Of a DNA stretch of 64,000 nt, positions 11,797 to 63,060 are shown piece by piece. Made by a program: the position numbers and the translations under genes. The DNA is taken from contig CM049317.1 in the NCBI GenBank assembly GCA_026874595.1, forward strand, positions 42,618,401 to 42,682,400, in the 5' to 3' direction. Under the pieces are notes generated by a model, which worked only from the letters and a program-made list of their open reading frames with translations, did no database searches and was not told the origin of the DNA. Every line of letters starts with the position of its first letter. Positions within the stretch are counted from its first letter, which is position 1. The DNA comes from Sipunculus nudus. Taxonomy: Eukaryota; Annelida; Sipuncula; Golfingiida; Sipunculidae.

Positions 11797-12675
11797 AGTA
11801 TATAATTAATTGTCTTCCATTTATTTTGTGTGTGACAATGTACAGTGGGAGACACGTCCAGTTGTTTTGGGTCCCATGTACTTGTTTTGTATCCACTATG
11901 ACCACACTGGTAACAATGACCTGTGTCAAGTGAGGTGTAACAAAATAGTCTTTGTGTCAAAGACCTATAGCAATACCCCTGAAACAAGTATAGGGCTGTC
12001 ATAATTTCACTGGTCCTGCTCAGTGTGCTTAGAATTGTTGTCAAGGCTCTTTTCAGCAAGAATAAAGCAGTTGGCCAGCAGCTCTGCTAGAGGAAACATA
12101 TGAACTGTAAGAAGCCTGAGGGCTGCTCAACATACTTGTTACTATGTGCTGCACTGAATCAAGACCAAGAGCTGTGTTTTTTTAACTTTACTGGTATGTT
12201 CAACAATAGACTTTTAAATGCACACCAAACCATGGTATGAACTGTGCCACACTCAGAATGCTGATGTTATGCACTGTTCCCAGTGTGCAGAGGCTTTATA
12301 GAGACCGAGGGGTACCGGCAGTACACGGGCACCACCCAGAAGTGCAGAGAATGGTGGACTTCAGACTTTGTCTCTGTGATACTTCATGCATGAAAGGTGA
12401 GCCATTTTACAGTTTTTCTTGGTACCCAAAAGCTGAACTGACTTTATGGTATCCCCTTTAAATGTATATATGAAATATTAACTGTCTTTACAATTGCTGA
12501 AATACTATAATACTTGATTACAAAATTTTAGATACTATAATACTTGATTACAAAATCCTAAGATATGTAGGAGACTCATTATTTCATTTGGGACCCAGTG
12601 TAATGACCTTTTTTAATACCCTGTTTTATCTCTATTAGAATATTGGCTCTGTTACCGTCTCCTGACGGGTTGCTA
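11797..12675 (+). repeat. 5' LTR, truncated and internally deleted
   Basis: Long blocks match 17335-18290, including CCAGTTGTTTTGGGTCCCAT and the 25-bp tandem duplication TACTATAATACTTGATTACA at 12505-12560. It lacks the TGTCA start. Near 12660 it lacks about 85 bp present in the 3' copy (about 18187-18270). Its 3' limit is uncertain and could reach about 12759 (TTTTACA). Confidence 0.75.
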
Positions 12676-12779
12676 CTTTTCTTCTTGGAGGTACGTGTTT
12701 TGGTTTATACGTTGGTATAACCATATGGCCTATTCTGTGGTCTTGTATATTTTACAGTAAAAAAAGCCCAGAAAATGGG

Positions 12780-13690
12780 CTTTAAAGGGGAAGACCTCAG
12801 GCCATTTGTAAATAGAGATCAAGAGAATTTAAGATAAAAGTGAGAAAGATAGGACTAGAGAAGAAAGGGCTCGTGAACGTGAAAAGAAAGCACGAGGACG
12901 CGAGCAAGCCCATGAACTTGCGGTATTGAAGTTGAAATCTCAGTTTCCTGTTGAGAGAGGAGGGGGGTCTAGTTTTGTAGGGGTTTCTTCCTTAAAAATG
13001 CCGTCCTTTGATGAGGCGTATAATAGACTTGACGCTTACTAAGAACTATTTAAAAGATTCGCTCTTGGAAAGAAATAGCCTGCATATGATTGGGCAATTC
13101 GCCATACGTTGTTGAAAGGCAAGTCACTAGAAACATATTCTACACTTCCCTCAGACGAAGCGCTTGACTATGAAAAACAAAACTCAAACTTGTTTTATTT
13201 AGACATTATCATATGACCGAAGAAGGGTTCCGGACTGAATTCCGTACTAGTCGTCCAGGAAAATCGGAAGCCCAAAGCCAATTTGCAGCTCGCATCAGTG
13301 GGTACCTACATAACTGGGTCAAGATGGCGTGTATAGATAGGACTTACGAGGGTTTGGTAGATCTCCTCCTTCGGGAGCAGTTTAAGAATTCTTGCTCCAA
13401 GGAGTTGTCAGTCTTTCTGCGTGAAAGACGGTGTTCTAGTATTGACTCGATGACAGAAGAGGCAGAAAAATTTGTTGAAGCCCATGGTCGATACAGTTTT
13501 TCATCTCACCCTAAAAATTTTGGTTCCAAACACGGTTGTAATCAGTCGTAAGGGAACAGACAGGCTAATGCAGGTAAGCAACAAACTTATCCACCTTCCA
13601 AAAGTATACTCCAACCACAAAGTGCTATAATTGTGGTGGTGCTAGACATAAATCTTTCCAATGTAAATTGCCTAAGAAAGGTAAGGATAT
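12780..13690 (+). pseudogene. gag: gag remnant: SCAN-like capsid and CCHC zinc knuckle
   Basis: The N-terminal part (about 12835-13020) is a charged Arg/Glu-rich stretch followed by KMPSFDEAYNRLDAY, the linker typical of this gag type, then stops near 13040 and 13076. The best-preserved frame, 13213-13551 (112 residues), contains FRTSRPGKSEAQSQFAARI, TYEGLVDLLLREQF and a terminal AHGRYS; this SCAN-like capsid domain mediates Gag multimerisation. A separate frame at 13623-13664 encodes a zinc knuckle CX2CX4HX4C (CYNCGGARHKSFQC), the nucleic-acid-binding motif. Several frame changes separate the pieces, so no intact Gag can be made. Vertebrate SCAN domains are thought to derive from this type of capsid. 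Confidence 0.8.
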
Positions 13691-13984
13691 GGTCCAAGGT
13701 TTCCAGGTTAACGAGCAACAAAATGTCATTCAGACTATGGTTGACCAGGCTGTGTACGAGCTGTGAGTAAAGCGGTCAAAGAAGCTCTAACACATGTCGG
13801 TAAGTTGGAATCAAATAGTAGTGGTCAGTCTGATAGCAAGCTAGTACCTCCTCTGCAGTGCAGCGATGTTAACATTGGCTCAGAACCTGTAACACTTGAG
13901 CCAGAGGTAATGAATTTGCCTTGTCCTGCAGCAGTTGGCAGACCAGAATCGCACACTTTAGGCATGCCAACATGCACAGGAGTC

Positions 13985-14240
13985 ATGACAATAAAATGGT
14001 ATCAGTACTTAGGGACACTGGGTGCAGCAGTGCTTTGGTTAGAACAGCTCTTATACAACAGGACCGGATGACAGGTAAGTCTCAAACCTGTATTCTGATA
14101 GACGGAACTGTGAGAGAATTCCCATTGCAAAGACTCAGGTACACACACCATAGTTCACAGGTGAGATAGAGGCACTCTCTATGGACAACCCGGTATACGA
14201 TCTAATAATCGGTAATATAAAGGGAGCTAGAGATCCTCAT
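13985..14240 (+). pseudogene. Retropepsin-like aspartic protease remnant
   Basis: The frame through 13998-14169 carries RDTGCSSALVR, the D-T-G active-site motif of retroviral-type aspartic proteases that cleave the Gag-Pol polyprotein. It is followed by a basic Gly-rich strand region (GKSQTCILIDGTVREFPL). A frame change near 14150-14170 separates this from the downstream region (about 14180-14215) ending in the expected LIIGN-type sequence. It lies between the gag knuckle and the integrase, as expected for gag-PR-IN order. Confidence 0.75.
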
Positions 14241-14519
14241 AAGCCAGATTCAGGATGAACTCCAAATGTACCAGAAAGTGGTCATGCAGTTGAGACCAGA
14301 GCCCAAGCTGCTAATAAGGGTTGGCCAGTAAAACCCCTTTCGGTGCTAAGTCCCATTGCTGGTGTTAGTCGTTCGGACCTGATTAGAGAGCAGCAAGAGG
14401 ACAAATTCCTTTCCCCGTTGTAGGATAAAGTAGGCAAACCTGGGGGTATATTTAAATATGCCATCAACAAGGGAGTTCTTGTGCGTCTGAAGGAAGACAA
14501 AAACATATCTGGTAAGTAT

Positions 14520-15640
14520 CACTCTCACGTAGTAGTCCCTATCCCTTTACGTACTGATATCTTGAAACTTGCCCATGAAGGGATCATGTCTGGCCACAAA
14601 TGAATATCCCGTACTTTTGAGAGGATTATCTTTAACATATTATGGCCGGGTCTGCATGAGGATGTCGCAAAATTCTGAAAATCATGCGACATGTGCCAGA
14701 GGACCATACAAAAAGAGAAGGTAGGAAAGGTCCCTTTAGGTAGAATGCCTCTAATGAGCCACCCATTTCAACGTATTTCTTTAGATTTAGTGGGGCCTAT
14801 CTTTCCTGCATCTGATCGGGGTAAGAGATTCATCCTAAGAGTGATGGATTACGCAACTCGCTATCCCGAGGCGATTGCATTGAGTAAGATAGAGACCGAA
14901 ACAGTCGCTGAAGCCCTCCTTGATGTTTACAGCAGACTTGGTATCCCCAATGAGGTATTGACTGACATGATCAGTCAATTCACCTCCTCTGTCATGCGAG
15001 AGGTCATTAGACTTTTATGTATCAAACAGCTGACCACTAACCCATATAATAAACGATGCAATGGCATGGAAGAAAAGTTCAATAACACCTTAAAAAGGAT
15101 GCTGAAAAAGATGTGTGCAGAGTGTCCTAGAGACTGGGACCCTTATTTAGCCCCGTTCTGTTTGCATACCGGGAGTCTCAACATGACTCTCTGGGTGGTT
15201 TATCTCTTTTCGAACTTTTATATGGGAGAAATGTCCGGGGCCCTTTAAAGGTTTTGAAAAAGCTAATGACAAATGATGAGGACGATTCTGAGGTCAAAAC
15301 TACGTACCAGCTTGTTGTTGACCCAAATGAAAGATTAAAGGATACATGTGCTCTTGCTAGAGAGGCACTGAGTAAAGCATCTGTAAGGTACAAACAGTTC
15401 TGTGACAGGAAAACAAAACCTAGGCATCTGCAAGTAGGTGATAAAGTGCTAGTTTTGTTACCTACAGATCGCAACAAATTACTCCTGCAGTGGAAAGGTC
15501 CTTTTGAGGTTACATGCAGGTGCAATGATTGTGATTATCAGACTGACATGCTGGGAAAATCTAAGGTTTTCCATTTAAACATGCTAAAGAAATATATAAC
15601 AAGGGCACAACCAGATAAGTCGCAGGTTGCATATTTGATA
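14520..15640 (+). pseudogene. Integrase remnant: zinc domain, DDE core and GPY/F module
   Basis: In order: an HHCC zinc-binding region (about 14570-14700) with AHEGIMSGHK and KSCDMCQRT; a catalytic core (14691-15248) with first Asp in SLDLVGPIF, second in LTDMISQF and Glu in NGMEEKFNNTLK; and a C-terminal GPY/F-type module (15254-15664) with VGDKVLVLLP and WKGPFEV. These cut and join element DNA to the chromosome. Stops at about 14601 and 14677 interrupt the zinc domain, and a frame change near 15170-15250 splits core from C-terminus. The usual Gly in the second motif (LTDxGSQF) is Ile here. Its position before RT is the diagnostic oddity. Confidence 0.8.
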
Positions 15641-16460
15641 TGTCTTGTTTTACTGGTGATGTAGGCATGTCTCTTGATATGCATAATTATCATCAGGATA
15701 CTGAGCAGTTAGATGTGGACTACTCAGAATGTGGGAAATCTGTGGTACCAGTACCTAGTGTGACGCGTCAGCAAGGTCAAGAACATGTTCAGATTTGTAA
15801 ACAACTCCAAGCTGCAAAAATTGAGGAACTCTCTTTGCTTATCAACCTGTATGAATCAGTATTTACTGATGTACGGAAGCAAACTCATGTCCTTGAGTGC
15901 GATTTGCGCACTACTACTGATCAGCCTATGAGATCAAAGCCTTATTCAGTGCCACATGCTTTAAGAGACACCATGAGCAAAGAAATACAAGACATGCTGT
16001 CCTTAGGTATTATTGAGAGATCAAACTCTGGTTTTGCCAGTCCGGTTGTCATGATACGTAAAAAAGGATGATACGATGGGGTCTGTATTGACTTCCGCAG
16101 ACTTAACCGTACCCTTTTGTTTGATCCAGAGCCAATGCCGAATTTCGAAAATCTCTTTGCTGAATTGGGTGAGAGTACCTATATCTCGAATCTGGATTTA
16201 ACAAAAGGCTATTGGCAAATACCCATGTCAGAGAGTTCTAAAGAACCAACAGCATTTGTCACTCCTGAAGCACAGTTTCAATTCCGCTTCATGAAATTTG
16301 GTCTTGTAGTGGCTGGAGCAGTGTTTACAAGAATGATTAGAAAGCTCTTTGATGGCGTGACCGGTGATGCTCTTATATTGATGATGTTCTTTGTCACACA
16401 GTTACCTGGCCAGAACATTTAGTCCTTTTAGAGAAAGTGTTTAAGATCCTTTAGGACGCC
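15640..16460 (+). pseudogene. Reverse transcriptase remnant (Ty3/gypsy type)
   Basis: The frame 15640-16071 holds the connection region and fingers (LECDLRTTTDQPMRSKPYSVP, LGIIERSNSGFASPVVMIRKKG) and ends at an in-frame TGA at 16069. The next, 16117-16422, holds palm motifs (NLDLTKGYWQIPM and FRFMKFGLVVAGAVF; the usual FGLxNAxAxF is altered). The YIDD catalytic box is present in the DNA near 16376-16387 but in a different frame, so a frameshift precedes it. Beyond about 16470 the thumb region is missing: sequence jumps from the post-catalytic region directly to the RNase H connection. Confidence 0.8.
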
Positions 16461-16489
16461 AGTTTAGAAGCAAAACCAGCCAAAAAATC

Positions 16490-17060
16490 ATCAAGAAAGA
16501 AGTGAGATCCTTTCTAGGTCTCACTGGATACTACAGGAAATTCATTCCTCATTATGCTGAAATCGCAGTTCCTTTAACCGATCTGACCCGAAAAGGTCAA
16601 AGCAATAAGGTCACATGGGGTGAGGCCCAGGAACGATCATTCCGCACATTGAAATCTATGCTAGTAAAACCACCTATTTTACAGCTTCCAGACATGTCAA
16701 AACCTTTTGTCCTACGAACCGATGCCTCAGACAAAGGTATTGGAAGTATCCTGTTGCAGGAATCCGATGGAATCATGTGTCCGGTTGCATATGCAAGCCG
16801 GAAATTGACAGAATGGGAACGCAACTACTCTGTAAAAGAGAGAGAAGCTTTGTCTATCAAATGGGCAATAGTTAAGTTTGATGCATATCTGTTTGGGAAG
16901 GAATTTTACATTCACACAGATCATAAGCCATTAACCTTCATCTATCAAGCGAAGTGTGTCGCGTTGGGCTATGATGCTCCAAGAATACAAATTCAGGGTA
17001 GAAGCAATACCGGGTAAAGAAAATCATGGACCCGACTTCTTAAGCAGAGTCCACATGATT
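16490..17060 (+). pseudogene. RNase H remnant, C-terminal domain of pol
   Basis: The frame 16502-17017 begins with the connection motif FLGLTGYYRKFIPHYAEIA and continues with RNase H acidic residues in VLRTDASDKGIG, EREALSIKWA and HTDHKPLTF, the activity that degrades the RNA strand during reverse transcription. A frame change near 16960-16980 moves the final segment (IPGKENHGPDFLSRV) to another frame, ending at a stop at about 17060. No integrase follows; non-coding sequence leads straight to the polypurine tract, confirming the PR-IN-RT-RH order. Confidence 0.85.
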
Positions 17061-17280
17061 TAGGTTGTAACTGCTAAGATTAGGCGAGCATTTTTTATTC
17101 CGTAGCAAAGTTGTTTTTGTAGCATTGGAGATCACTGTACAAATTCAGGAGAGTGCACCAGTATACCACTACGCCCCTTTTGGTTTTGGTTACGTGTTAG
17201 TCTGTTTGAACATTTATTTTTATAAATAAATCTTTGGGATAAACGGATCCAATATGAAAATGCCTGCATTTTCCTTTGTT

Positions 17281-17291
17281 GGGAGGAGTGA
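17281..17291 (+). other. Polypurine tract before the 3' LTR
   Basis: GGGAGGAGTGA abuts the TGTCA start of the LTR; this is the expected primer site for plus-strand DNA synthesis. Confidence 0.7.
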
Positions 17292-18440
17292 TGTCACACA
17301 GATCCCCTAGGATATATTTTTGTGTATATATAATCAATTGTGATACATTTATTCTGTGTACAGTGTGAGACACAGCCAGTTGTTTTGGGTCCCATGTACT
17401 TGTTTTGTACCCACTATGACCACACTAATAACGATGACCTGTGTCCAGTGAGGTGTAACAAAACCCCCAGGTAGTCTTTGTGTCAAAGACCTATAGCAAT
17501 ACCCCTGAAACAAGAATAGGGCTGCCATAATTTCACTGGTCCTGCTCAGTGTGCTGAGAATTGTTGTCGATGCTCTTTTTAGCAAGAATAAAGCAGTTGG
17601 CCAGCAGCTCTGCTAGAGGAAACATATGAACTGTCTGAGGGCTGCTCAACAGACTTGTTACTATGTGCTGCACTGAATCAAGACCAAGAGCTGTGTTTTT
17701 TTAACTTTACTGGTATGTTCAACTATAGACTTTTAAATGCACATCAAACCATGGTATGAACTGTGCCACACTCAGAATACTGATGTAATGCATTAAAGGA
17801 CTGTTCCCAGTGTGCAGAGGCTTTATAGAGACCGAGGGGTACCGGCAGTACACGGGCACCACCCAGAAGTGCAGAGAATGGTGGACTTCAGACTTTGACT
17901 CTGTGATACTTCATGCATGAAAGGTGAGCCATTGTACCGTTGTTCATGGTACCCAAAAGCAGAACCTAACTTTATGGGAGCCCTTTTAAATGTATTTATG
18001 AAATAGTACTGTCTTTACAACTGCTGAAATACTATAATACTTGATTACAAAATCTTAGATACTATAATACTTGATTACAAAATCCAAAGATATGTAGGAG
18101 ACTCATTATTTCATTTGGAACCCAGTGTAATGACCTTTCTTTAATACCCTGTTTTATCTCTATTAAAATATTGGCTCTGTTACCCCTGAATGTTGGGAGT
18201 TATTTTTCTCTTTGAGCTAAAACGGTCCGACGTTGTTTACAGAGGGAGCCTTCTGGTATTTGGTATGCTGAAGGGTTGCTTCCTTTCTTCTTGGAGAGGT
18301 TTCATTGGACTATCTATCTGCATCTTGTGGCAAATCGTAGTTACCGGGAACTCCAAGGACTGCATTAGTCCACTCGTGTTTCTTTTGTAATATATAGTGT
18401 CTAATCTGTGCTGTACTTGCCGGCTTATTTCACAGTGAGG
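17292..18440 (+). repeat. 3' LTR
   Basis: Begins TGTCACACAGATCCCCTA directly after the polypurine tract. From about 17330 it parallels the 5' LTR for roughly 900 bp with scattered substitutions and small indels. Its end is uncertain; a plausible CA terminus lies in the TTTCACA at about 18430-18436. The 41-bp array begins about 220 bp beyond. Confidence 0.75.
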
Positions 18441-18654
18441 TGCTAATACTTCTCATTCTTCGCTCGATATCATATTGCACTTGTATGCACTTATATTCAT
18501 TAAATTTATTGTACATCTTTCAGTTGTTGGTCATTTGTGTAGAAATGTGCGAATGTTTTCTTATCATATGCTAAGTATTAAAAGAACTGGGGAAAGGTGC
18601 TTAAGGTCAGATGACCTTAAAATGCAAACCTTTACAATGTTTTGTACATGTTTA

Positions 18655-20120
18655 TATGTTTATTGTGCGCAGTACGGCAACATGCATGGTCTGTTTATTG
18701 TGCGCAGTCCGGCCATATGCATGGTTTGTTTATGATAAGTGTGCGCAGTACGACAACATGCATGGTTTGTTTATGTTTGGTGTGCGCAGTCCGGCCACAT
18801 GCATGGTTTTTTTATGTTTATTGTGCGCAGTACGGCCACATGCATTGTTTATGTGTATTGTGTGCAGTCCGGCCATATACATGGTTTGTTTATGTTTATC
18901 GTGCGCAGTACGGCCACATTCATGGTTTGTGTATGTGTAGTGTACTCAATACGGCAACATGCATGGTCTGTTTGTTTATAGTGCGAATTATGGTTTATAG
19001 TGCATTGTATGCTTATATTTAGTGTGCACAGTACAGCCACATGCATGGTTTGTTTATGTTAATTTTGCGAATAACGGCCACATGCATGGTTTGTTTATTT
19101 TTAGTGTGCGCATTACGACCACATCTATGGTTTGTTTATGTAAAGTGTGCGCAGTACGGCCATATGCATGGTTTGTTTATGTTTAGTGTGCGCATTACGA
19201 CCACATGCATGGTTTTTTATGTAAAGTGTGCGCAGTACGGCCACATGCATGGTTTGTTTATGTTACGTGTGCGCATTACGACCACATGAATGGTTTTTTT
19301 ATGTAAAGTGTGCGCAGTAGGGCCACATGCATGGTTTGTTTATGTTTTCAGTGCGCAGTACGGTCACAAGCATGGTTTGTTTATGTTTTGTGTGCGCATT
19401 ACGACCACATGCATGGTTTATGTAAAGTGTGCGCAGTACGGCCACATGCATGGTTTGTTTATGTTTAGTGTGCGCATTACGACCACATGCATGGTTTTTT
19501 TTTTTATGTAAAGTGTGCGCAGTACGGCCAAATGCATGGTTTGCTTATGTTTAGTGTGCGCAGTACGGCCAAATGCATGGTTTGCTTATGTTTAGTGTGC
19601 GCAGTACGGCCACATGCATGGTTTGCTTATGTTTAGTGTGCACAGTACGGCCACATGCGTGGTTTGCCTTTGTTTAGTGTGCGCAGTACGGCCACATGCA
19701 TGGTTTGGTTATGTTAAGTGTGCGCAGTACTGCCACATGCATGGTTTGTTTATGTTTTGAGTGCGCAGTACGGCCATATGCATGGTTTGCTTATGTTTAG
19801 TGTGCACAGTACGGCCAAATGCATGGTTTGCTTATGTTTAGTGTGCGCGGTACGACCACATGCATGGTTTGGTTATGTTCAGTGTGCGCAGTACTGCCAC
19901 ATGCATGATTTGTTTATGTTTTGAGTGCACAGTACGGTCACATGCATGGTTTGTTTACGTTTAGTGTGCGCAGTTTGGTCACATGTATGGTTTGTTTATG
20001 TTTAGTGTGCGCAGTACGGCCACATGCAAGGTTTGTTTAAGATAAGTGTGCGCAGTACGGCAACAAGCATGTTCTGTTTGTTTATTGTGCGCAGTACGGC
20101 AACAAGCATGGTTTCAAATG
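18655..20120 (+). repeat. 41-bp minisatellite, long array (about 36 units)
   Basis: Same unit as 3038-4456 (GCAGTACGGCCACATGCATG plus a T-rich half). Units are diverged, with frequent alternation of GCAGTACGGCC and GCATTACGACC types around 19090-19510, a sign of amplification of unit pairs. Reading frames of 60-126 residues on the plus strand are translations of the repeat, not genes. It lies immediately downstream of the retroelement whose LTR ends occur inside the first array. Confidence 0.9.
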
Positions 20121-21744
20121 GATTACGAATACCAAATAATCATTCTGCTTATGTGAACAATATGAGAGGATTTATAACACAAAGATTTAATAAAGATTTG
20201 AAAACAAATCAAGAAAATCTGATTAATTCCCTTTTAATCATGACGAGGACACTTAATAGTAAGGAATCTTGGGCATGAAATATTAATTCGAATGACCAAG
20301 AAATTAAGCTAAATATTACTTTTATAATGAAAAAAAAACTAATTCTATATAACCAAAGCGCTTAAAATAGTCTCCGATTAAGAAATTTGGAACATTGACC
20401 TATGCTCAAAGACACTCGCCAATGACACTTGTTACATTGAAACACGTTTATCCTGGTGTGCGGGGCTCGAAATAGTATGTATACTCGTTTCTCGATGTCA
20501 AATTAAATATACTCACAGACGCGGCATATCATAATCGTTTGGCACAGTGATTGTTCATATATCAATGCCGTAACGTGCCAAGTCTGGTTTAAAAATGCCG
20601 CAGACGGAAATTCCAAGTGCCATTCAATAGCCCGCGTCCTGACGTTGTTTTTGCTAGTGTAAAAACCGCAATTAATATGCTAATTTTTGTTCAGAAACCA
20701 TTTAGAAAGTCCCATTATAACATATTTTAAGGCACTGCATAAAAAGGATCAGCATTTTTCCTATACATTACACCAACCGAAGAGTGTTAATTACGGTGTT
20801 GAAGCGAGCAGACCAACACGTGTAAACATCCTGACACGTTGTTGTTTCGCGCGGTGTATTGTGGGACGATGACGTAAGGGTTTGTGCCATGCTTCCGTGG
20901 GCGTAGCGCAAGGCAAGCTGGGAACCATGCTACCAGTAGGATCATCTTTAAACCTAGAAAGCTCTTCACGCATTTTCTTTTTTAAACCCGATTTGCATTT
21001 TACATGTATTTTAAACTTAACAGGGATCATTGCCAAGGTTTAGGGCCTTTTGGCATCACTGATGGCGCAATATCCTTGTTAGACAGATGGTGGGGGACTA
21101 TTAGTATCTCTAGGCCTTTGTTTCTCGATGATTTGACATCCAGTGTCAATTTAGGTGAAAATTAGCTTCTGTGCACCTCTGGAAAGTGACGGCTTACTCC
21201 CCTAGTGCCCAAATTCAAAATGGCGACCGACAACATTTTGAAAAAAAAAAAGAAAATATAATATCTCTGGCACCAGATATGTTAGAATGACAAAAGTGGT
21301 GTCGTTTCCGACTAATGCTTGTGGTGATATACTAGGCTACCACAAGGTGGCGCTGCGGGCTTACGATCTAGTCGGTTCTACGTCATACAGAACAAGGATG
21401 CAATGCATATGGCACATGTAACATTGGAATAAAAGCATTTATATAGTAGACTGTCTTGTGAACGATGTTCACACAACACAATGCTGGCATGACAAATTCA
21501 CTTAAGTGGTTATTGAAGAGTTTCGGGATCTTCCTAAACTCTCAATTCCAAACGGCACCCGACATCAACTTGAAAAACATGGAGCATGGTATTTCTGACA
21601 TACTTGTATCCAACAGGCAATATGGCCACATTAGCCACTTTGAAGAATGTCAGATATATCAGAAACGTAGGAAATTCTGATCTGCTTCTGCGGTGATTTT
21701 GAGATTATAAAAATCTGATTGACCCTCAAACTCTGAGAAAACCA
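20121..21744. other. Intergenic sequence, no supported gene
   Basis: The part near 21220-21310 (AAAATGGCGACCGACAAC, then a TGGCACCAGATATG region) resembles units inside the left arm of the adjacent palindrome and sequence near 6862-6960, so it is probably another diverged repeat copy. The rest is unremarkable. Confidence 0.45.
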
Positions 21745-22730
21745 TTCGCCATGCATTAAATAGCAGTAATTAAGATGACGGCGACAACCATTAAGACTGA
21801 AAAAAAACGGAACAACAATAACCATTTAAGTGGATCAGTCACGTTGGTATTACTGGGAAATGACATCTCGTTTGTGTTTCTAGGTCACCGGGTGCAAGAT
21901 ATATCATATTTTCTGTTTTTCAAGATGGCGTCAGCTGTCATCTTGGATAAATTAAGGTCATGGTCATCCCGAAATTCAACTATAACAATTTAGTTGGATC
22001 TTTTAATAAGTAGACAATGATACTTAATTCATTCTTCTTGTTCATCTACTGCCAGGAATAGGCCAACAACATATGAAGGTTAAACAATGTCGGGGGCCAT
22101 TCTGAATTAGAACTTCAGAATGATCTACAGTAACTATTCTTAGATGAAATTGTCATGCCAGGATTAGTACGAAATGATACCTCATATGTATTTCTATTAC
22201 ACATGGTGCCAGAGGTATTACTTTTTCTCCTTTTCATGATGGCGTTTGGCCTCATTTTGAATATAAAGGTTTAGATGATCCCAAAACTATACAATAACCA
22301 CTTGAGTGGACTTGTCATGCCAGAATTAATCGGAAATGACACTTCATGTGTCATTCTAGCTGCTCTGGTGTCTGCGATACACTTTAACATTACAATGGAC
22401 AACAGTTGGACGGCGTTTTATGGTTGCAAATATGAGCCTTATTCTAGAGAAACAAGGGGACATCATGTCCCTGTATTACTTTGGGAATGGGGACATCCTG
22501 TTTCCTCTTTGTTTCTGGGAATATCCTTTGTTCCCTATTTGTGTATATGTGTGTGTGTGTGGGGGGGGGATAAACAATCATATTTTAGAACATTTATTTC
22601 AAGATTATTCTGTCATCCAATTTATAGTTTTTCATATGTTCCTCAATAATCATTCTGTCACGTAATAAGATAAAGAAAATGTAAAAACTCTCAAATAAGA
22701 GTGAACAAAAATTTGAAAATTAAGCATATC

Positions 22731-23149: not shown

Positions 23150-24205
23150 AAAACATGACGACAAAGCATGGCGTAGTTAATCTGTCTGGGTGTGGAAGTC
23201 TGACGACAAAGCATGGCGTAGTTTGTCTGTCTGGGTGTGGAAGTCTGACGACAAAGCACGGCGTAGTTTGTCTGTCTGGGTGTGGAAGTCTGACGACAAA
23301 GCACGGCGTAATTTGTCTGTCTGGGTGTGGAAGTCTGACGACAAAGCACGGCGTAGTTTGTCTGTCTGGGTGTGGGTGTGGAAGTCTGACGACAAAGCAC
23401 GGCGTAGTTTGTCTGTCTGGGTGTGGAAGTCTGACGACAAAGCACGGCGTAGTTTGTCTGTCTGGGTGTGGAAGTCTTACGACAAAGCACGGCGTAGTTT
23501 GTCTGTCTGGGTGTGGAAGTCTGACGACAAAGCACGGCGTAGTTCGTCTGTCTGGGTGTGGAAGTCTGACGACAAAGCACGGCGTAGTTTGTCTGCATGT
23601 CTGGGTGTGGAAGTCTGACGACAAAGCACGGCGTAGTTTGTCTGTCTGGGTGTGGAAGTCTGACGACAAAGCACGGCGTAGTTTGTCTGTCTGGGTGTGG
23701 AAGTCTGACGACAAAGCACGGCGTAGTTTGTCTGTCTGGGTGTGGAAGTCTGACGACAAAGCACGGCGTAGTTTGTCTGTCTGGGTGTGGAAGTCTGACG
23801 ACAAAGCACGGCGTAGTTTGTCTGTCTGGGTGTGGAAGTCTGACGACAAAGCACGGCGTAGTTTGTCTGTCTGGGTGTGGAAGTCTGACGACAAAGCACG
23901 GCGTAGTTTGTCTGTCTGGGTGTGGAAGTCTGACGACAAAGCATGGCGTAGTTTGTCTGTCTGGGTGTGGATATCTGACGACAAAGCACGGCGTAGTTTG
24001 TCTGTCTGGGTGTGGAAGTCTGACGACAAAGCACGGCGTAGTTTGTCTGTCTGGGTGTGGAAGTCTGACGACAAAGCACGGCGTAGTTTGTCTGTCTGGG
24101 TGTGGAAGTCTGACGACAAAGCACGGCGTAGTTTGTCTGTCTGGGTGTGATCGTCTGACGACAAAGCACGGCGTAGTTTGTCTGTCTGGGTGTGGAAGTC
24201 TGCGA
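23150..24205. repeat. 45-bp minisatellite (about 23 units)
   Basis: The unit contains GACGACAAAGCACGGCGTAG and TTTGTCTGTCTGGGTGTGG. Copies are nearly identical apart from a 6-bp expansion near 23370 (GGTGTGGGTGTGG), a 4-bp insertion near 23595 and single changes. The length is a multiple of 3 and the unit lacks stops in most frames on both strands, producing overlapping frames of up to 359 residues in both orientations. All encode 15-residue peptide repeats and none has gene features. High homogeneity implies recent amplification or ongoing homogenisation. Confidence 0.95.
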
Positions 24206-25545: not shown

Positions 25546-26899
25546 AGGGTGTTGGGATGATTCGCAGGCGTGTGAGGGTAGTAAAAGTTGGGACAACTTT
25601 TTTCAACCTTTTGTTATCTGTGTGACACATTTCAAATATACAATATATTACAATTTAGTTTAAGGTTTTTAAAAAAAGGTGTTTTCAGTAAAGGTTAACT
25701 CTTAACCAGATTTAGAAATATAATATTTCATAGTTATCTCAGAAATGGAACCAAAGTCTAATTATTGATGCATTTTATTTTCAGTATATAAACATCATAA
25801 TCTGAATATCCGGGTCTTAACTACATTGACCATCCCCCTTGCAAAAAAGTATATTTTGCTTCTATAAAAGCAAGTTTTGCTCAATTTTCTAAAATTTTGT
25901 TCACTCTTATTTGAATTTGATTTTAATCAAATACTTACAATGCTAACATGTAAAATGGAACCACATCCTACAATTTCTTAAGATAGATTGCGTGACAGAA
26001 GGATTATCAAGAAACATATGAAAAACTATAAACTGGATGACAGAATAATCTTGAAATCAATGTTCTAAAATATGCTTGTTTATTCCCCCCCCCCACACAC
26101 ACATATATACACAAATAGGGAACAAAGGATATTTCCAGAAACAAAGAGGAAACAGGATGTCCCCATTCCCAAAGTAATACAGGGACATGATGTCCCCTTT
26201 TTTCACTAGAATAAGGCTCATATTTGCAACCATAAAACGCCGTCCAAATGTTGTCCATTGTAATGTGAAAGTGTATCGCAGGCACAAGAGCAACTAGAAA
26301 GACACATGCAGTGTCGTTTCCGATTATTTCTGGCATGACAATTTCATCTAAGAATAGTTACTGTAGATCATTCTGAAGTTCAAATTCAGAATGGCCCCCG
26401 ACATTGATTAACCTTCATATGTTGTTGGCCTATTCCTGGCAGTAGATGAACAAGAAGAATGAATTAAGTATCATTGTCTACTTATTAAAAGATCCAACTA
26501 AATTGTTATAGTTGAATTTCGGGATGACCATGACCTTAATTTATCCAAGATGACAGCTGACGCCATCTTGAAAAACTGAAAATATGATATATCAGGCACC
26601 CGGTGACCTAGAAACACAAACGAGATGTCATTTCCCAGTAATACCAACGTGACTGATCCACTTAAATGGTTGTTGTAGTTTCGTTTTTTTCAGCCATAAG
26701 GTTCGTCGTTGTCACCTTAATTTTTACTATTTAATGCATGGCGAATGAGAGTTGTATCCTTCCTTTTAGTTTTTTGACATTCAATTCATATTTTTGGTCT
26801 CAGAGTACACAGGAAAGTTTATTTGTTGTGGCCTTGTTGTAAAATTGAAGGTTACAATTTTAACAAAATCATGAAAGTAACCATATCCTGTTTCTAGCT

Positions 26900-30555: not shown

Positions 30556-30604
30556 GATGGCAACAATAAAGGGTACCATGAATCAGCAGGTAATTGTTAC
30601 TTGG

Positions 30605-31939
30605 ATATCAACCAGCCTGTGGTGGATCATCAGATATCAACCAGCCTCTGGTGGATCATCAGATATCAACCAGCCTGTGGTGGATCATCAGATATCAACC
30701 AGCCTCTGGTGGATCATCAGATATCAACCAGCCTCTGGTGGATCATCAGATATCAACCAGCCTCTGGTGGATCATCAGATATCAACCAGCCTCTGGTGGA
30801 TCATCAGATATCAACCAGCCTCTGGTGGATCATCAGATATCAACCAGCCTCTGGTGGATCATCAGATATCAACCAGCCTCTGGTGGATCATCAGATATCA
30901 ACCAGCCTCTGGTGGATCATCAGATATCAACCAGCCTCTGGTGGATCATCAGATATCAACCAGCCTCTGGTGGATCATCAGATATCAACCAGCCTCTGGT
31001 GGATCATCAGATATCAACCAGCCTCTGGTGGATCATCAGATATCAACCAGCCTCTGGTGGATCATCAGATATCAACCAGCTTCTGGTGGATCATCAGATA
31101 TCAACCAGCCTCTGGTGGATCATCAGATATCAACCAGCCTCTGGTGGATCATCAGATATCAACCAGCCTCTGGTGGATCATCAGATATCAACCAGCCTCT
31201 GGTGGATCATCAGATATCAACCAGCCTCTGATGGATCATCAGATATCAACCAGCCTCTGGTGGATCATCAGATATCAACCAGCCTCTGGTGGATCATCAG
31301 ATATCAACCAGCCTCTGGTGGATCATCAGATATCAACCAGCCTCTGGTGGATCATCAGATATCAACCAGCCTCTGGTGGATCATCAGATATCAACCAGCC
31401 TCTGGTGGATCATCAGATATCAACCAGCCTCTGGTGGATCATCAGATATCAACCAGCCTGTGGTGGATCATCAGATATCAACCAGCCTCTGGTGGATCAT
31501 CAGATATCAACCAGCCTCTGGTGGATCATCAGACATCAACCAGCCTCTGGTGGATCATCAGACATCAACCAGCCTGTGGTGGATCATCAGACATCAACCA
31601 GCCTGTGGTGGATCATCAGACATCAACCAGCCTGTGGTGGATCATCAGACATCAACCAGCCTGTGGTGGATCATCAGACATCAACCAGCCTCTGGTGGAT
31701 CATCAGACATCAACCAGCCTCTGGTGGATCATCAGACATCAACCAGCCTCTGGTGGATCATCAGACATCAACCAGCCTCTGGTGGATCATCAGATATCAA
31801 CCAGCCTCTGGTGGATCATCAGATATCAACCAGCCTCTGGTGGATCATCAGATATCAACCAGCCTCTGGTGGATCATCAGATATCAACCAGCCTCTGGTG
31901 GATCATCAGATATCAACCAGCCTCTGGTGGATCATCAGG
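30605..31939 (+). repeat. 29-bp minisatellite (about 46 units)
   Basis: The unit is ATATCAACCAGCCTCTGG followed by TGGATCATCAG. Units are almost identical. Two variants cluster: ATATC to ACATC in about 31530-31790, and CCTCTGG to CCTGTGG in the first units and again in about 31570-31670. The forward strand has no stop in any frame, so three overlapping frames of up to 485 residues arise, each a 29-residue repeat; none is a credible gene. The array starts about 50 bp beyond the right end of the 29200-30555 element. Confidence 0.95.
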
Positions 31940-37340: not shown

Positions 37341-38493
37341 TCACACATAAACTGTGCCGCACCAGAGAAGAAGAGTCCACACGATACAAGTAAACTGTAG
37401 AGCACCAATAATATTTGAAATAGTCATAGTTCTACAAATATGCATCGTTAACAAAATCAATGGCTGAACAAGTGAAGCACAACGAGTTATCAGCAGTAAG
37501 CCTGCTGGCCCTGCTCATGTTGAATCAAAATTCTGGATCTTCATACCAGACTTATAAGGTGCGACTTTCAAGGAGACGCAAGCATACATTTATTTTGTGT
37601 ATTTATACATGTCACATTAACCACATGTATATCCACATTAACATATAAGAAAGCACTGAGTATTTAAGTGCCAGATTTGGTCAAACGTAACTTTTTGTTA
37701 TTGGACAATAGCAAAGCCGATCAAGGTACGAATCATGCAAGTTTTTAATTTATTTGCTGTAAATAAATACTATTTAGAACAAAGATGGGATGATGTTACA
37801 TGTTGTTTAACTAAATCTGTCGTCTTGGTCACGAGCTGACATTCCTTATACACAAGTCGAATTCATACAACGGAGCCCGTCTTGGTCATGGTACAGGACA
37901 ACTAAATCTGCAGCTGGAGCTCTATAGGTGCTCGATTAAGTGGATTCCAGAGTATAATTAATCATAAGAATGGCCCTGGATTTTAAAGCACGAACATTAT
38001 ATCACCGTTTCTCGAGTAGTAAGATCACTTTCTGGGTGTGTGTAAAACGGCCGAGAAGCCGTTAGCTAGTTTTGTCACAGCGATCAACAACAGAGATTTG
38101 TTCATCTGTCTGTGGTGCTACTGGTTGGTGAGTGCCTCGTCTGCGGCCACTGTTTGTCTACTTCATAGTGCTGTAAGTGGGGCCTTCTTATTAAAGCTGC
38201 ATGCTGCTGTTTGGGCCGCGTAAAACACGAGCTGGGTTTACACGTTAACTTCTCACAGGCGGCTGATCCTGTCAGTAGGCGTGTTCAGCAGCTGTTGTGA
38301 GACAGTTGACATGTCACAGTTGTGCTAGAAACAAAACCAAATGAAAATGGCTGGAATTGACAGAATGGTAATGAGTTTCACAGCACTCTAATTATCAAGT
38401 AATCTTTATCTCACTTTGATAACACGGCGGGCTGGTGGCTTCATCTTTCACTTAGTGCCGTAGCTCCATACCCAAACAGGCTTATATAACAAC
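37341..38493. other. Sequence upstream of the GPCR gene, no supported gene
   Basis: Probably contains the promoter and 5' untranslated region of the GPCR. Small frames at 37460 and 38038 have no recognisable content. No clear TATA box, initiator or splice pair was assigned with confidence. Confidence 0.4.
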
Positions 38494-39573
38494 ATGGGCT
38501 CAAACAGATCAGACCCGACGCCCATGGGGAACATTTCAACGACCATATCGGTCTCAGACCTGGAAATGGACACCTTGAGGTATTTTTCATATGGACTATA
38601 TCTTATTACTGTCTGGGGATGTGCGAGTAATTTGCTGGCTCTATATGTGTTGTTGCGCTCACAGAAAATCCACACAACGGTGTACGGTAGGTTTTTAATA
38701 GCTTTATCTACGTCGGATACGGTGGCTTTGATCACCACACAGATTGCTTCGCTGATTATCGGAGAGATGCCTGCGGGGCATCTCACGTGCGTGACCATAC
38801 TGTATTTGATGTATGTTTCACAAATGGTGTCCACATTTGTGATTGTTTGTATCAGCGGTAACCGGTTCGTTGTAGTTGTTTATCCGACCAGTTCTGGCTG
38901 GCTCTCCAGGCCACGTAATGGCGTGTTAATGATAGTCACTGTGACCGTTATTGCCGCGGCCATGTACATCTTCTCTCTGTTTACCTTTACTTCCAAGAAA
39001 GGTAAGTGTCAGATATTAACAGATCAGCAACTGACGTATTTCATTGGAATACTCGTGGCAGACGTCATCGTCAGAGACCTCATCGCAGGAACCATTATAT
39101 TTGTGTTGTCAATGTGCACTATATTTGCACTGCGTACCTCCGGTCAGAGACTGGCTAATACTAAAGCTCCGGGAGGAAGTGAGAGATGTGGCACGTTGTC
39201 TCGACATCGCCGAGATGAGGAACGTCAGGTGACCGTGTTGCTCTTGGTGGTGGCATTCACCTACCTGCTGCTCCGCCTCCCGTACTCCGCAACCTGGGTA
39301 CCCCAGCATCTACAGAACTTCATCAGCTACTCACAGGAGACGATTGTCCGCCTAAACACCGCCACCAACATCACCACGCTTATTGCCATGACCAACCACG
39401 GTATTAATTTATATCTGTACTGCCTGGGCAGCAAAATTTATCGTCAGGAGATAAGGAAGTACGTCTTACCCATCTGTGCCCCCAGCCGACACCGGAATTC
39501 TAAAGGCGCACATCCGCCGGAACATGAGGCCATCAACAATGGCGGACATGCTAACGTGCAGTGCGGACAGTAA
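38494..39573 (+). CDS. Class A (rhodopsin-like) GPCR, invertebrate peptide-receptor type
   Basis: A single-exon 359-residue plasma-membrane receptor expected to couple a ligand to G proteins. Seven hydrophobic segments lie at about 32-55, 65-89, 100-125, 142-164, 183-213, 246-269 and 286-311. The N-terminus has glycosylation sites N4 and N13. Family landmarks are N46 (TM1), D75 (TM2), and C99 with C172 for the extracellular disulfide. The DRY motif is NRF (123-125), TM6 has LRLP (260-263) instead of CWxP, and TM7 has NLYLY (305-309) for NPxxY, followed by a short amphipathic helix and a basic tail. The NHGINLYLYC pattern recalls FMRFamide-receptor-like orphans; the ligand is unknown. GC content is higher than the surroundings. 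The start is the first Met, placing the glycosylated N-terminus outside. The last 12 codons fall in a tandem repeat. Confidence 0.9.
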   Translation: MGSNRSDPTPMGNISTTISVSDLEMDTLRYFSYGLYLITVWGCASNLLALYVLLRSQKIHTTVYGRFLIALSTSDTVALITTQIASLIIGEMPAGHLTCVTILYLMYVSQMVSTFVIVCISGNRFVVVVYPTSSGWLSRPRNGVLMIVTVTVIAAAMYIFSLFTFTSKKGKCQILTDQQLTYFIGILVADVIVRDLIAGTIIFVLSMCTIFALRTSGQRLANTKAPGGSERCGTLSRHRRDEERQVTVLLLVVAFTYLLLRLPYSATWVPQHLQNFISYSQETIVRLNTATNITTLIAMTNHGINLYLYCLGSKIYRQEIRKYVLPICAPSRHRNSKGAHPPEHEAINNGGHANVQCGQ

Positions 39574-40023
39574 AGATAAGATAGACACGGAACAATGGCG
39601 GACATGCTCATGTGTTTTGTGGACAGCAAAGATAAGATAGACACGGAACAATGGCGGACATGCTAATGTGTTTTGCGGACAGTAAAGATAAGATAGACAC
39701 GGAACAATGGCGGACATGCTAATGTGTTGTACGGACAGCAAACATAAGATAGACACGGAACAATGGCGGACATGCTAATGTGTTGTGCGGACCACAAAGA
39801 TAAGATAGACACGGAACAATGGCGGACATGCTAATTTGTTGTACGGACAGCAAAGATAAGATAGACACGGAACCATGGTGGACATGCTAATGTGTTTTGC
39901 GGACAGCAAAGATAAGATAGACACGGAACAATAGCGGACATGCCAATGTGTTGTATGGACAGCAAAGATAAGATAGACACGGAATAATGGTGGACATGCC
40001 AACGTGTTGTGCGGACAGCAAAC
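39534..40023 (+). repeat. 56-bp tandem array overlapping the GPCR 3' end (about 9 units)
   Basis: The unit contains ACAATGGCGGACATGCTAAT and GCGGACAGCAAAGATAAGAT. The first unit includes the last 12 codons and stop of the GPCR (stop at 39571-39573); the later units are non-coding. The repeat thus probably arose by amplification of the end of the coding sequence and start of the 3' UTR. Confidence 0.9.
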
Positions 40024-42780: not shown

Positions 42781-43982
42781 TTTAGCTCAGCTGACTGAAA
42801 GTCACCTGAGCTATAGCGAGCAGTCTTTGTCCGTCTGTCCATCCGTTAACCAGGCACAAATCGTAACCGCTGGACCTGGAATCTTCTTACTTGACTTCCA
42901 AGAAGGTCCATGAAACATCTCCTTTGAAACTAGAAATTAGGTCTTTTTGCATGCATGGAGTGTTTCATCAGTTCCTGCAGACTGGTGGCGCTACCTGTAT
43001 TTTTATCGAATATTAATGCATTTTCTCTTTTTCTGAGACCCTCAAAGATGCAGTCGTCCGTTAACAAGGCACATATCGTAACCACTGCACCTAGAATCTT
43101 CTTAGTTAATATCCATGGAGGTCATTACAAATCTCCTTGGAATCCTGAAATTAGCTCTCTGTTACCCATATCCTCAAAGCTATAGGCTTATAAGTACCCT
43201 CTAGAATAATTAAAAATTTGGTACAAAAGCTCCTTTATCTGAATAACTGATGCATTTCTCGCCACGATTCTTTGCATGGATATTGATCATGGAGTGTTTC
43301 ATCAGTTTCTGCAGACTGATGGCGCCACCTGTATTTTTTTTCTCGAAATTGCACGCATTTTTTTCTCTATTTTTGACGCCTTCAAAGATGCACAAATCGT
43401 AACCATATAGACTAGAATCATGAAACCTCTGCATCCTGAGAGGTCCTCCAACCTTTCTCAGAAACCTGAAATTATGTCAGTTATATTCTTAGAGTTACGG
43501 AGCCCGTTTAACCCCTCCCCAGAATAATTAAAAAATACACACTAATTGCCAGATTCCTCAGGAAAGGCTCGATGGATTGTCATAAAATGTGGTGTGCTTA
43601 TGGATCTTAATGAACCTTAGCTACATGGCATGAATGGTGGTGCCACCTGCACTATCTTATTTTAAACAAATTTTACTTGTATTTTTTAGAATACTAACTC
43701 TGTTTACAATGTACAAACCGTACCCGTAAAGGCTAGAGTCATGAACATCTGCATCCTGAGAATTCTTCAGAAGTTCTCTTCAGAAATCTGAAATTAGGTT
43801 ACTGTGACCTGCTTTCTCCGAGTTACGGGGCGTGTTTGAGCATCCCAGAAATATTGTAACGGACTTCCGGTGTCATGGCTGCTTGTAGCTAGACGGATAT
43901 AAGGACTGCTCCGTATAAAAGTGGAATTACCCAGTGTAAAAAGGTTTCAATACGGAACAGGTACAACAAAAAGTTATAGACA

Positions 43983-44917
43983 ATGCCTAAACAACAACGA
44001 ACCAAAAGAGGTGATACACAAGGGAGCCTAGATAGCTTCATTGAAAAAGAAACCACGGAGGAAAGCAGTTTGCAGACGATCGAGCCCCAGCATGGGGCAT
44101 GTAAACAAACGGACAAAGACGTGAGAGAGGTGAGCCAGAGTATGAATAAAACTATGCTTGACACAAAATTAAAAGCTCTTGAAAATAATATTTTGAAAGC
44201 ATTCACAGATTTTAAAACTTCACTAGAAACACAAGTAAAGAGATTACTTGGTGAAGTTCAAACATTAGAAAAAGGTGTCGGAGAATGTAAAGATGAGCTA
44301 GGTCAGTTAAAGAGAAGTACAGAATTCTCACAAGGTCAGATTGAAGATTTGCTCAAGAAAATGAAACATTGAAAAAAGAATCTGATCAAATGAAAGTTGA
44401 GATGAACAGTTTGAAAAAAGATTTGTATGAGAAAAATAAAATAATTCAAGAATAAGAACAAAGATGTATGAAAAACCTGAATGAATTGGAACGTTATTCC
44501 AGAGAATTTAATGTAAGACTGACTGGGATGAAAGAAGAAAAAGGAGAAAATTGCAAAAATATTTTGGCTCAAATTATTGAAGAAAATAATTTGGCAGAAA
44601 GGAAAACAAAAGCTGAAATATTAGACTGTATTGAACACGCGCACAAGTCCGGTCAAAAGTTCAGAGACACTCGGCACATAATTGCCCGTTTCTATAGCCG
44701 GGGGTTGAGAAACCACAAAAAAGCCGCAAAAGAAAAGCTGAATAATAGAGATGGAAATAACGGTGTGCACCTGTACGAGGACTTGACTGCTGAGGACTAC
44801 AAACAGAAGAAGAGAGCAAGAGATCAAATGAAAGAAGCCCATCGGCAACACACGAAAACCCGCTTCTGGCATGGACAATTGATTATTGAGGGAAAGCGTG
44901 TGGAGATAAGTTCATAA
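43983..44917 (+). pseudogene. LINE ORF1 (Transposase_22-like RNA-binding protein), broken
   Basis: The first frame, 43983-44372 (129 residues), has a charged N-terminus followed by a heptad-rich coiled coil (about residues 55-125), as for trimerisation of L1 ORF1p. A frameshift near 44360 and an in-frame TAA at 44453-44455 break it. The second frame, 44468-44917 (149 residues), carries the RRM and C-terminal domain signature: LERYSREFNVRLTGM, then RFYSRGLRNHKKAAKEKL and EDLTAEDYKQKKR. The product would bind element RNA as a chaperone. Confidence 0.75.
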
Positions 44918-45300
44918 ACTCTGTTTTTCTCGCCACGTATCTTTGGGTGCATGTTTCAATAACTGTCCACCAGAATGCGCCAGTACACAAAGTTGTCAAG
45001 TAACTCGAAAGAGGGCGCTACAACCGACAAAAAGGATAATAATGACCAAAAAAGACCTTAAGATAGCGTAATTATACTGCATTAAAAACCATGTGGTTAT
45101 GGTGTTAAGGATCATATAAATAAATTAGTAAATAACTTTAAAAAAATGGAGCGATACAGACTGTTTCCGGCTTAGCATCAATATAGTTAACATAGCTATA
45201 AGATAATTATCAAAGTTGAGTGTTTTGTCATTAGCTGGATACACATAAAGGGACGCTCCTGGTAACCAGCTGATATTTTCTATTACAGAGATCTGCAGCT

Positions 45301-45600
45301 ATGTTATTAATATGCATCCATTCACCACTAGAATTACTGTTCTATTTATTACTGTTCTATGTGTGCCTTAAATTATGTTTGTTGTGTAGAACGAGAAAGT
45401 ACTTGGTTAGGGAATATTATCTAGAAAAGGAGATTTTGAAGAAGTGTATAAGGTTGATTGTTATGTTACTAGCAATTGATAATTATTTATGGGGAATACT
45501 CAAATGTAAACCTTGGAAGGAGGTTAAGGTAGACAAAGAATGTGTGAATATTGGTTATAAAATCATTGGCAAAACTAACAATAAGTTAAAAATAATATGA
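45301..45600 (+). CDS. Small hydrophobic frame between LINE ORF1 and ORF2, doubtful
   Basis: A 99-residue frame with a strongly hydrophobic Leu/Cys-rich N-terminal half and a Lys-rich C-terminal half. Its stop overlaps the probable ORF2 start (45598-45600). It lies in the roughly 680-bp spacer. It resembles nothing I know and may be chance in AT-rich DNA. Confidence 0.15.
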   Translation: MLLICIHSPLELLFYLLLFYVCLKLCLLCRTRKYLVREYYLEKEILKKCIRLIVMLLAIDNYLWGILKCKPWKEVKVDKECVNIGYKIIGKTNNKLKII

Positions 45601-60383: not shown

Positions 60384-60439
60384 TAAGATCGTACGGAAGC
60401 GTATTGCTGCCACCTGGTAAAAGAAAAATAAATTATTTA

Positions 60440-60565
60440 TCTCGTACGTACGACATAGTATCTCGTACGTACTATAGTATCTCGTACGTACGACATAATA
60501 TCTTGTACGTACGACATACTATCTCGTACGTAAGACATATTATCTAGTACGTACGACATAATTAA
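60440..60565. repeat. 21-bp tandem array, left arm (about 6 units)
   Basis: The unit is TATCTCGTACGTACGACATA plus one base, with the self-complementary core CGTACGTACG. Mirror array at 62900-63010. Confidence 0.85.
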
Positions 60566-61284
60566 TCTTACGCATCTGATTCACAGAATACACAACAGGC
60601 CAACTGATATATGTATAAGCAATATATATATGTTAAATAATGCATGTTCCTACCCAAACTACGCAACATCTTCACCTTGCAAACCGTCGGAACACTGTCG
60701 AAAAAAATACCTATGTTTATATATGTATTTATTTATTTATTTATACTATAAATTTAAATGCTATTCGATTTATCATGGTTTCTTTGTGTCCAGGTTTAGG
60801 AAATATTTCAAGGAAATGAAATTTATCAAATCGTTGTCTGCAAGTCATATACAGAACTTTCGTTTTTAAATAGGTAATTAAAATCTGTTAGCAGTGTATG
60901 ATAATGATCAGCCTGTCATAATATAAATAAGAAAAAAAAATATTGCCTTTGCCAAATTGAATCTACCTTTTGGAGAAGGAAGGGTTCGGACAAGAGGTAC
61001 AACTAACAAATAGCCTGATTATAAGTAATTGAGAATGGATATATGTGGGGTAGGTTTCTTATATTCCAAAATTGATCTGTATAAGAACTAGATTTATGAC
61101 TAAACGCACAGTGTCACTCGCCCTTCTGTAAACGGCACAAAGTTCAACTGATGGGATCAAGCACTTGGTTTATAATATATGATTCAGGAACCTCTCCTTA
61201 CGGGCATCTCTGTATTACAGACACCTCTATATTACAGACACCTCTATATTGATACTCAAGGTTCATATTCTTTTGTAATAATAT

Positions 61285-61876: not shown

Positions 61877-62899
61877 GATCTTTCCTCTGGTCACCCGGCC
61901 TTCTTATGTAAACACTTAATAGACACTTATAGAGGTCCTGTAATGCAGAGATACCCATTAGGAGAGGTTCATGGTTCATATATTATGAAACTAAGTGCTT
62001 GATCCCATAAGTTGAACTTTATGCCGTTTACAGAAGGGCGAGTTACATGTGCACGTTCATGTACCACATACAAGATCTTATACCAATCCGCAAATGAAAG
62101 AAATCTGAGGTGTAGATTTTACCACCACTTCAGCCTGACATATGAGGTTAAGACTTATTTTAGAATTTCGTATTCTTCTGTCACAGATTAATCGCACGCC
62201 CATAAGTGATAGTTCTTAATATATATTTTTTTATAATTTAGCTCAAAATAAAAATTATACGTACCCCATTAAATGGATTGTTGTCTGTTCAGCTACCCAC
62301 CAATCACATCAATGGCTGTATATGCATTAAATAGTTTAAAAGATCAACTACACGATGTGCTATGTAAAAATTTAGTTCTTAGAAAGATCAGTTTTGAATA
62401 TTAGAAACCTACCCCATAAATATCCATTCTCAATTACTTAAAATCAGGCTATTTGGGATTTTTACCTCTTGTCTGAACCTCTTTTCTCCAAGAAGTAGTT
62501 TCGGTTTGGCAAAGGCAAGATTTGTTTCTTATTAACATTATGACAGGCTCCCTATTATAACATCATATACTGCTAACATTATTTAATCACCTGTCTTAAA
62601 ATGAGAGTTCTGTATATGACTGTCAGACAACGATTTGATGTATATTTCGCTTGCTTGAAATATTACAGAAACCTGGACACACAAAAAAATGTGAATCGAA
62701 TAGCATTTAAATATATACTATAAATAAATAGATATATGTGAGTGTGTGTGTTGGTTTCAACGGTAGTCCAGCGGTTTGCAAGGAGGTGGAGATGTTGTAT
62801 ATATAGTTAATGTGAAAACATACATTATTTAATATATACATATTGTTTATACATATATCTGTTGGCATGTTGTCTAGTCTATGAATCAGATCCGCAAGA

Positions 62900-63010: not shown

Positions 63011-63060
63011 TAGTTTATTTTTCTTTTACCAGGTGGCAGCAATACGCTTACGTAAGATCG

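Follow-up and report, generated by a model that had tools for sequence, protein, structure and literature searches.

Gmr1-like elements are a group of Ty3/gypsy retrotransposons reportedly described by Goodwin and Poulter in 2002. They are the systems with which we compare the subject of this report, an element bounded by long terminal repeats (LTRs) on the plus strand of a 64,000-nucleotide stretch of DNA (the window, meaning the whole stretch analysed). Gmr1-like elements, with the integrase upstream of the reverse transcriptase (RT), are known from cod, a tunicate and the annelid Lamellibrachia (PMC8220671) and from crustaceans (PMC3587641), and are also described in PMC6238403; here and below, papers are cited for the passages of them available to us. 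Among the elements that a survey of polychaetes recovered itself, those passages report none of the Gmr1 clade (PMC8556966). Over half of the frog Gmr elements hold a SCAN domain (PMC4131045), five zebrafish elements carry SCAN between LTR and pol (PMC8672886), and the SCAN domains of vertebrates are stated to derive from the gags of Gmr1-like elements (PMC4592553, PMC3424704, PMC7231272). In a survey of molluscs, which sorted elements by RT and RNase H, the available passages name Gmr1 once, in the introduction; the group does not appear in the clade table, in which many clades are unnamed (PMC6238403). Our own literature searches on Gmr1 with mollusc and bivalve terms returned no report of a mollusc Gmr1 by title or summary. 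The integrase-first type has already been reported outside vertebrates, and the family described here adds a member to the known Gmr1-type elements.

Results

We hold with high confidence that window positions 11799-18636 are the decayed remains of a Ty3/gypsy LTR retrotransposon of the Gmr1 type. Between the two LTRs come, in this order, a SCAN-type capsid, a weak zinc knuckle, a protease remnant, an integrase, an RT and an RNase H. Pfam was run on ten stop-free pieces of the element, the parts of which are as follows (L numbers denote loci retrieved in the searches described below; nt, nucleotides).

11799..12690 (end approximate), plus strand: truncated 5' LTR; its first ~35 nt are gone, and a deletion has removed its end together with the primer site and some of the leader
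12741..13213, plus strand: remnant of the N-terminal part of gag, frame broken by stops (frame listing; start estimated from the alignment with L091)
13213..13548, plus strand: SCAN-type capsid piece of gag (Pfam SCAN PF02023, E=4.2e-8, 33.3 bits, above the 27-bit cut-off)
13590..13763, plus strand: CCHC zinc knuckle (Pfam zf-CCHC, E=0.018, under cut-off)
13921..14166, plus strand: putative protease remnant (place and RDTG motif; protease at the corresponding place in the fetched copies by tblastn)
14424..14675, plus strand: zinc-binding part of the integrase, with stops within (Pfam H2C2, E=0.064 for piece 14424-14600, under cut-off)
14679..15245, plus strand: integrase catalytic core with DD35E spacing and with frame shifts close to the end (Pfam rve, 2e-10, above cut-off)
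15131..15661, plus strand: C-terminal GPY/F-type module of the integrase (SH3_Tf2-1, 1.2e-5; Integrase_p58_C, 0.0015; both under cut-offs)
15640..16068, plus strand: linker and start of the RT (tblastn to L050, E=4e-17)
16072..16419, plus strand: RT core, ~106 nt absent relative to the copies (Pfam RVT_1, E=1.1e-13)
16502..17014, plus strand: end of the RT connection and RNase H (Pfam RT_RNaseH_2, E=2.2e-33; RNase H tree)
17281..17291, plus strand: polypurine tract abutting the 3' LTR (sequence; similar tracts in L091 and L092)
17292..18636, plus strand: 3' LTR, TG...CA, 1345 nt (alignment with L091)

Pfam gave no match for 13079-13213 (N-terminal part of gag), 13921-14166 (protease) or 15640-16068 (linker and RT start). 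The order of the Pfam matches and the reality of the LTR pair bear out the earlier note, which had read from the letters a SCAN-like gag through to RNase H, followed by a polypurine tract and an LTR. That note had also claimed that no integrase stands at the end of the element, and rightly so, since RNase H stops ~270 nt short of the tract and leaves no room for one. An LTR-bounded element at 11797-18440, as it had proposed, is likewise present, but its end was set too early: the alignment with L091 carries the 3' LTR to 18636. The LTR pair and polypurine tract of the window, together with the target duplications of the copies, are those of an LTR retrotransposon. The order of the domains would fit Ty1/copia as well, but the best matches of the RNase H in the PDB are the Ty3 structures 7q5b and 4ol8 (E=2e-16), which places it with the Ty3/gypsy type. 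The integrase core finds its best PDB match in the integrase of prototype foamy virus (3e-10), with Ty3 at 1e-4.

The genome searched comprises 1.43 Gb in 153 contigs, with the window on contig C12. A 601-nt RT probe gave 76 candidates, of which 40 were scored, so the copy counts are lower bounds: at least 59 stretches matched. Among them are those of at least 19 other copies, matching at 87-91% in the probe's first part; 15 more, at 66-69%, represent at least one second family. The two parts of the probe lie ~110 nt apart in all 19 nearer copies (both parts matched) versus 4 nt in the window. Eight loci were returned for this probe (L051-L058), namely the window and 7 of the 19 other copies, and all eight have the order integrase zinc-binding part, core, C-terminal end, RT, RNase H; the zinc-binding part of the window's integrase is also matched in each of the other seven. 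The integrase-last order of Mag, CsRN1 and other gypsy clades occurs in none of these eight. L089-L091, three copies of the window family, were fetched with their flanks, together with L092, a region in which a second family is arranged in tandem, and all four show SCAN, protease, integrase, RT and RNase H in succession (tblastn). A single frame of 1501 amino acids (aa) covers the whole order in L090 and L091, L089 holds it in three open stretches and L092 in shorter ones. The integrase-RT order that the earlier note expected of genome copies was therefore found wherever RT-probe loci and full regions were read, and intact copies with the integrase after RNase H were not seen in the loci examined.

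These data also bear on whether the order is a local rearrangement, either an ordinary gypsy element with a moved integrase or two nested fragments that resemble one element. The window copy is broken at many places and its order alone could mislead; however, we consider a rearrangement exceedingly improbable, given the same order in 7/7 other RT-probe loci returned, its containment within one open frame in two copies, its presence in the elements L049 and L050 from outside this genome (see below), and the 5-bp target duplications that flank L089, L090 and L091 and so enclose the whole unit in 3/3 copies. The LTRs of these copies (~1.32 kb) are 99.4%, 99.7% and 99.5% identical, respectively, over 1097-1098 columns, corresponding to an age of about 0.1-0.25 million years if changes accrue at 1.3e-8 per site per year; that rate comes from an annelid study (PMC8220671) and may not suit this host. 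The window element is a dead member of a Gmr1-type family whose other copies in this genome include young ones.

Decay of the window copy is evident in shifted frames, stops, a missing primer site and the ~106 nt absent from the RT. Its LTRs (11839-12656 versus 17357-18184) are 92.6% identical counting gaps (BLAST), or 95.6% over 810 ungapped columns, with a Kimura two-parameter distance of 0.046. If the same annelid rate holds, with the same reservation as to the host, the copy was inserted ~1.8 million years ago, and after inserting it would have lost its primer site and part of its RT. A deletion reaches from within the 5' LTR into the leader and accounts for the lost primer site; because the left LTR end is lost, no target duplication can be read. 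We considered reading the deletion near 12690 as an intron and rejected this, as in the compared copy the primer site and the end of the LTR both lie within the stretch concerned.

Integrase-first elements also occur in head-to-tail rows. One at C7:49357576-49387799 (L092) has six matches at ~5.95 kb spacing, another at C9:18200021-18213366 has three RT-probe matches at ~6.67 kb, and a third at C5:17790757-17797124 has two RT-probe matches at 6.37 kb. Unit copies of L092 are 99.3% identical over 3625 columns, and no LTR pair lies within one period.

The SCAN-like capsid of the Gmr1 group is present both in the window and in the family copy L091 (8.7e-11, Pfam). Pfam SCAN scores reach 42.3 bits in L049, 41.9 in L091, 39.1 in L092 and 57.8 in L061. 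Single capsid pieces gave no PDB match (phmmer), whereas for a profile of 24 capsid pieces the four best PDB matches were vertebrate SCAN structures, those of ZNF24, ZNF174, PEG3 and ZNF42 (E=3.3e-6 to 0.021); the other 9 of its 13 matches are unrelated by name, with E of at least 0.28. A predicted model of the window's capsid piece has five helices, with pLDDT (the predicted local confidence score) ~95 at residues 1-90 and 40-54 beyond. A search of the genome for SCAN (PF02023) gave 2198 first-look candidates, and 150 of 150 scored lay above the Pfam cut-off; the same search gave no match in 14 control genomes and hence had no positive control. A lone SCAN match would point to a vertebrate-type transcription factor, and one might therefore suspect a domesticated host gene or a SCAN-zinc-finger gene, not a mobile element. 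We regard this as next to impossible: the element has LTRs, a polypurine tract and pol domains, its family includes young copies and copies flanked by target duplications, and in 29 of the 30 best SCAN loci a protease, an integrase or both follow on that strand (tblastn; L066 has neither). The capsids of these 30 loci are closer to that of L049 than to that of the window.

Integrase-last elements of the same genome were sampled by a search for the RNase H family (6977 candidates, 150 scored, best 30 loci examined), on which our estimate of their share rests. The integrase lies downstream in 23 of these 30 loci and upstream in 6; in the remaining one, L121, none was found on either side of RNase H. 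In three unrooted trees, a single branch separates all integrase-first rows from the rest: 17 in the RNase H tree (41 rows, 30 different; support 99/98), 10 in the integrase tree (31 rows; 95/92) and 13 in the RT tree (35 rows; 100/98). The window's RT, RNase H and integrase pieces group apart from the integrase-last gypsy elements in all three, and the grouping with ordinary gypsy that would have spoken against the earlier note was thus not seen among the integrase-last elements sampled. Tree rows were cut with domain profiles built from integrase-first elements, and the window rows were trimmed (integrase 157 aa, RT 95 aa). The integrase tree leaves out stretches under 100 aa (L062, L073 and L104, integrase-first; L123 and L134, integrase-last), and the RT tree leaves out L113, L121 and L122 as too short. 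Six integrase-first RNase H loci have no integrase core in their 3.3 kb, and three of them enter the integrase tree through larger regions (L135-L137).

The order of the domains and the type of capsid go together in the elements examined. With the capsid profile, a SCAN match precedes the integrase in all three integrase-first regions chosen by RNase H (L135, 7e-33; L136, 3e-8 and 9e-10 in two pieces; L137, 2e-28), while neither of two integrase-last regions (L138, L139) has one. Pfam SCAN matches L135 at 1.1e-9 and a 56-aa piece of L136 at 1.7e-5 (24.9 bits, under cut-off); the stretch in L137 contains stops and its match is known from the capsid profile. The two integrase-last gags match Pfam Retrotrans_gag, one at 2.6e-4 (under cut-off, next to DUF1759 at 1.6e-4) and the other at 2.8e-8. 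A SCAN-type match was found in every integrase-first element that was reached through RT or RNase H and then traced into gag: the window family, L049, L050, L092, L135, L136 and L137. L104, in which the integrase also precedes the RT, was chosen by its SCAN match; its order counts as independent evidence and its capsid does not.

A single scan of bacterial and archaeal genomes for an RT motif pattern yielded relatives outside this genome, on two contigs of metagenome-assembled genomes. L049 (Breoghania) encodes the integrase-first order, SCAN gag included, in a single frame of 1586 aa, and L050 (Candidatus Thiodubiliella, which we take to be a genus of deep-sea mussel symbionts) encodes this order in one of 1476 aa. 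As animal-type elements in metagenome bins, both are very likely host or environmental contamination. L050 is the nearest outside relative found, yet a lineage separate from the window family (identity 61% in the integrase core over 157 aa, 51% in the integrase C-terminal module, 61% in RNase H, 53% in RT and 41% in the capsid piece); its 5441-nt contig holds no LTR pair. L049 is distant, at 35% in the integrase core, 46% in RNase H and 23% in the capsid piece, and groups in the RNase H tree with L104 of the window's genome. The ends of the L049 contig (1-129 and 6241-6369) repeat exactly over 129 nt, which may point to the element being in circular or tandem form. Among viral contigs, two protein searches gave no relatives, two DNA patterns gave 48 loci, none matched by six window pieces (tblastn, E 0.01), and a third DNA pattern gave 8 loci, of which L099 alone matched, weakly (E=0.006) and with no readable order.

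Elsewhere in the window, 41-bp minisatellite arrays lie at 3790, 4011, 4457 and 18655-20114, the last of which begins 18 nt past the 3' LTR end. Three fragments of 43-91 nt by the arrays at 3.0-4.5 kb start exactly at the first base of the window family's LTR. As LTR fragments and the 3' LTR adjoin arrays, elements of the family may have landed in the minisatellite, whose amplification would then have multiplied them as well. An open frame at 38464-39573 (plus strand, 369 aa) encodes a rhodopsin-type G protein-coupled receptor (7tm_1, E=3.6e-21); a 56-bp tandem array comes next (39535-40022). Remains of the long interspersed nuclear element (LINE) type occupy 43980-48534 (plus strand), with an RT piece at 46811-47254 (RVT_1, E=1.4e-17) and, upstream of it, an open reading frame at 43980-44372 that has no Pfam match. 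Long inverted repeats at 21743-22666 / 25987-26747 (93%) and 60387-61095 / 62368-63059 (80%) are both possibly non-autonomous DNA transposons. Tandem arrays at 23156-24202 (45-bp, 95% matches) and 30604-31938 (29-bp, 99% matches) keep more than one frame open owing to their period.

Discussion

The claim that the window element is a Gmr1 relative, made in the earlier note, is supported by the integrase-first order, the SCAN capsid and the split of the in-genome trees. Several points weigh against it. The putative protease of the window, assigned by place and motif, has no profile match; the zinc knuckle, the zinc-binding piece of the integrase and the GPY/F module all match under the Pfam cut-offs; and the capsid piece of L050, at 25.3 bits for Pfam SCAN, falls short of the 27-bit cut-off. 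The trees are unrooted and contain many near-copies and only a handful of integrase-last lineages, and the midpoint root of the RT tree lies among integrase-first rows. As the trees hold no named Gmr1, Mag or CsRN1 sequence, the case for membership in the Gmr1 clade is made by the group's defining order, by the SCAN capsid and by the split within the genome. This leaves room for a Ty3/gypsy lineage that came by the integrase-first order on its own and merely resembles Gmr1, a reading helped by a comparison made without a named Gmr1 sequence, by the unrooted trees and by the depth of some integrase-first lineages. We nevertheless consider it very unlikely, as the family shares the SCAN-type capsid, which the available passages of PMC4592553 and PMC4131045 tie to Gmr1-like gags, and all sampled integrase-first lineages fall together.

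Established retrotransposon biology suggests how an intact member of the family would multiply. The long polyprotein would package the RNA by means of its capsid and zinc knuckle, the protease would release the enzymes, a transfer RNA would prime reverse transcription next to the 5' LTR, plus-strand synthesis would start at the polypurine tract, and the integrase would insert the copy with a 5-bp stagger. The place of the integrase in the polyprotein would alter the order of the cleavage products and leave the cycle unchanged.

Since all the integrase-first gags traced match SCAN and two integrase-last gags do not, we tentatively propose that the integrase-first order and the SCAN capsid form one ancient linked package. 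It is quite possible, if a little short of probable, that each arose once, before the animal phyla split, and that vertebrates acquired their SCAN factors late, from an ancient lineage of which young and active members persist in this genome. The genome holding these elements is probably not a vertebrate's. A search for mollusc-type haemocyanin gave no match in 3 candidates, but the control genomes gave none either, and the result speaks neither for nor against the mollusc that the earlier note suggested. It offers a sample of Gmr1-type elements with young, unbroken copies alongside integrase-last gypsy controls, allowing the rearrangement and the SCAN-type capsid to be dated without vertebrate copies. 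These observations may also bear on the absence of a Gmr1 clade from the mollusc survey, as far as the available part of that paper shows (PMC6238403), and are offered there as a lead only.

In comparison with known systems, the window family has what characterises Gmr1-like elements, namely an integrase before the RT, an RT and RNase H of Ty3/gypsy type and, as the available passages on frog Gmr indicate, a SCAN-type gag (PMC4131045). Its likeness to Gmr1 is one of order and capsid. The SCAN domains of the vertebrate proteins ZNF24, ZNF174, PEG3 and ZNF42 match the same capsid profile, but these are domesticated in host proteins and have no pol genes.

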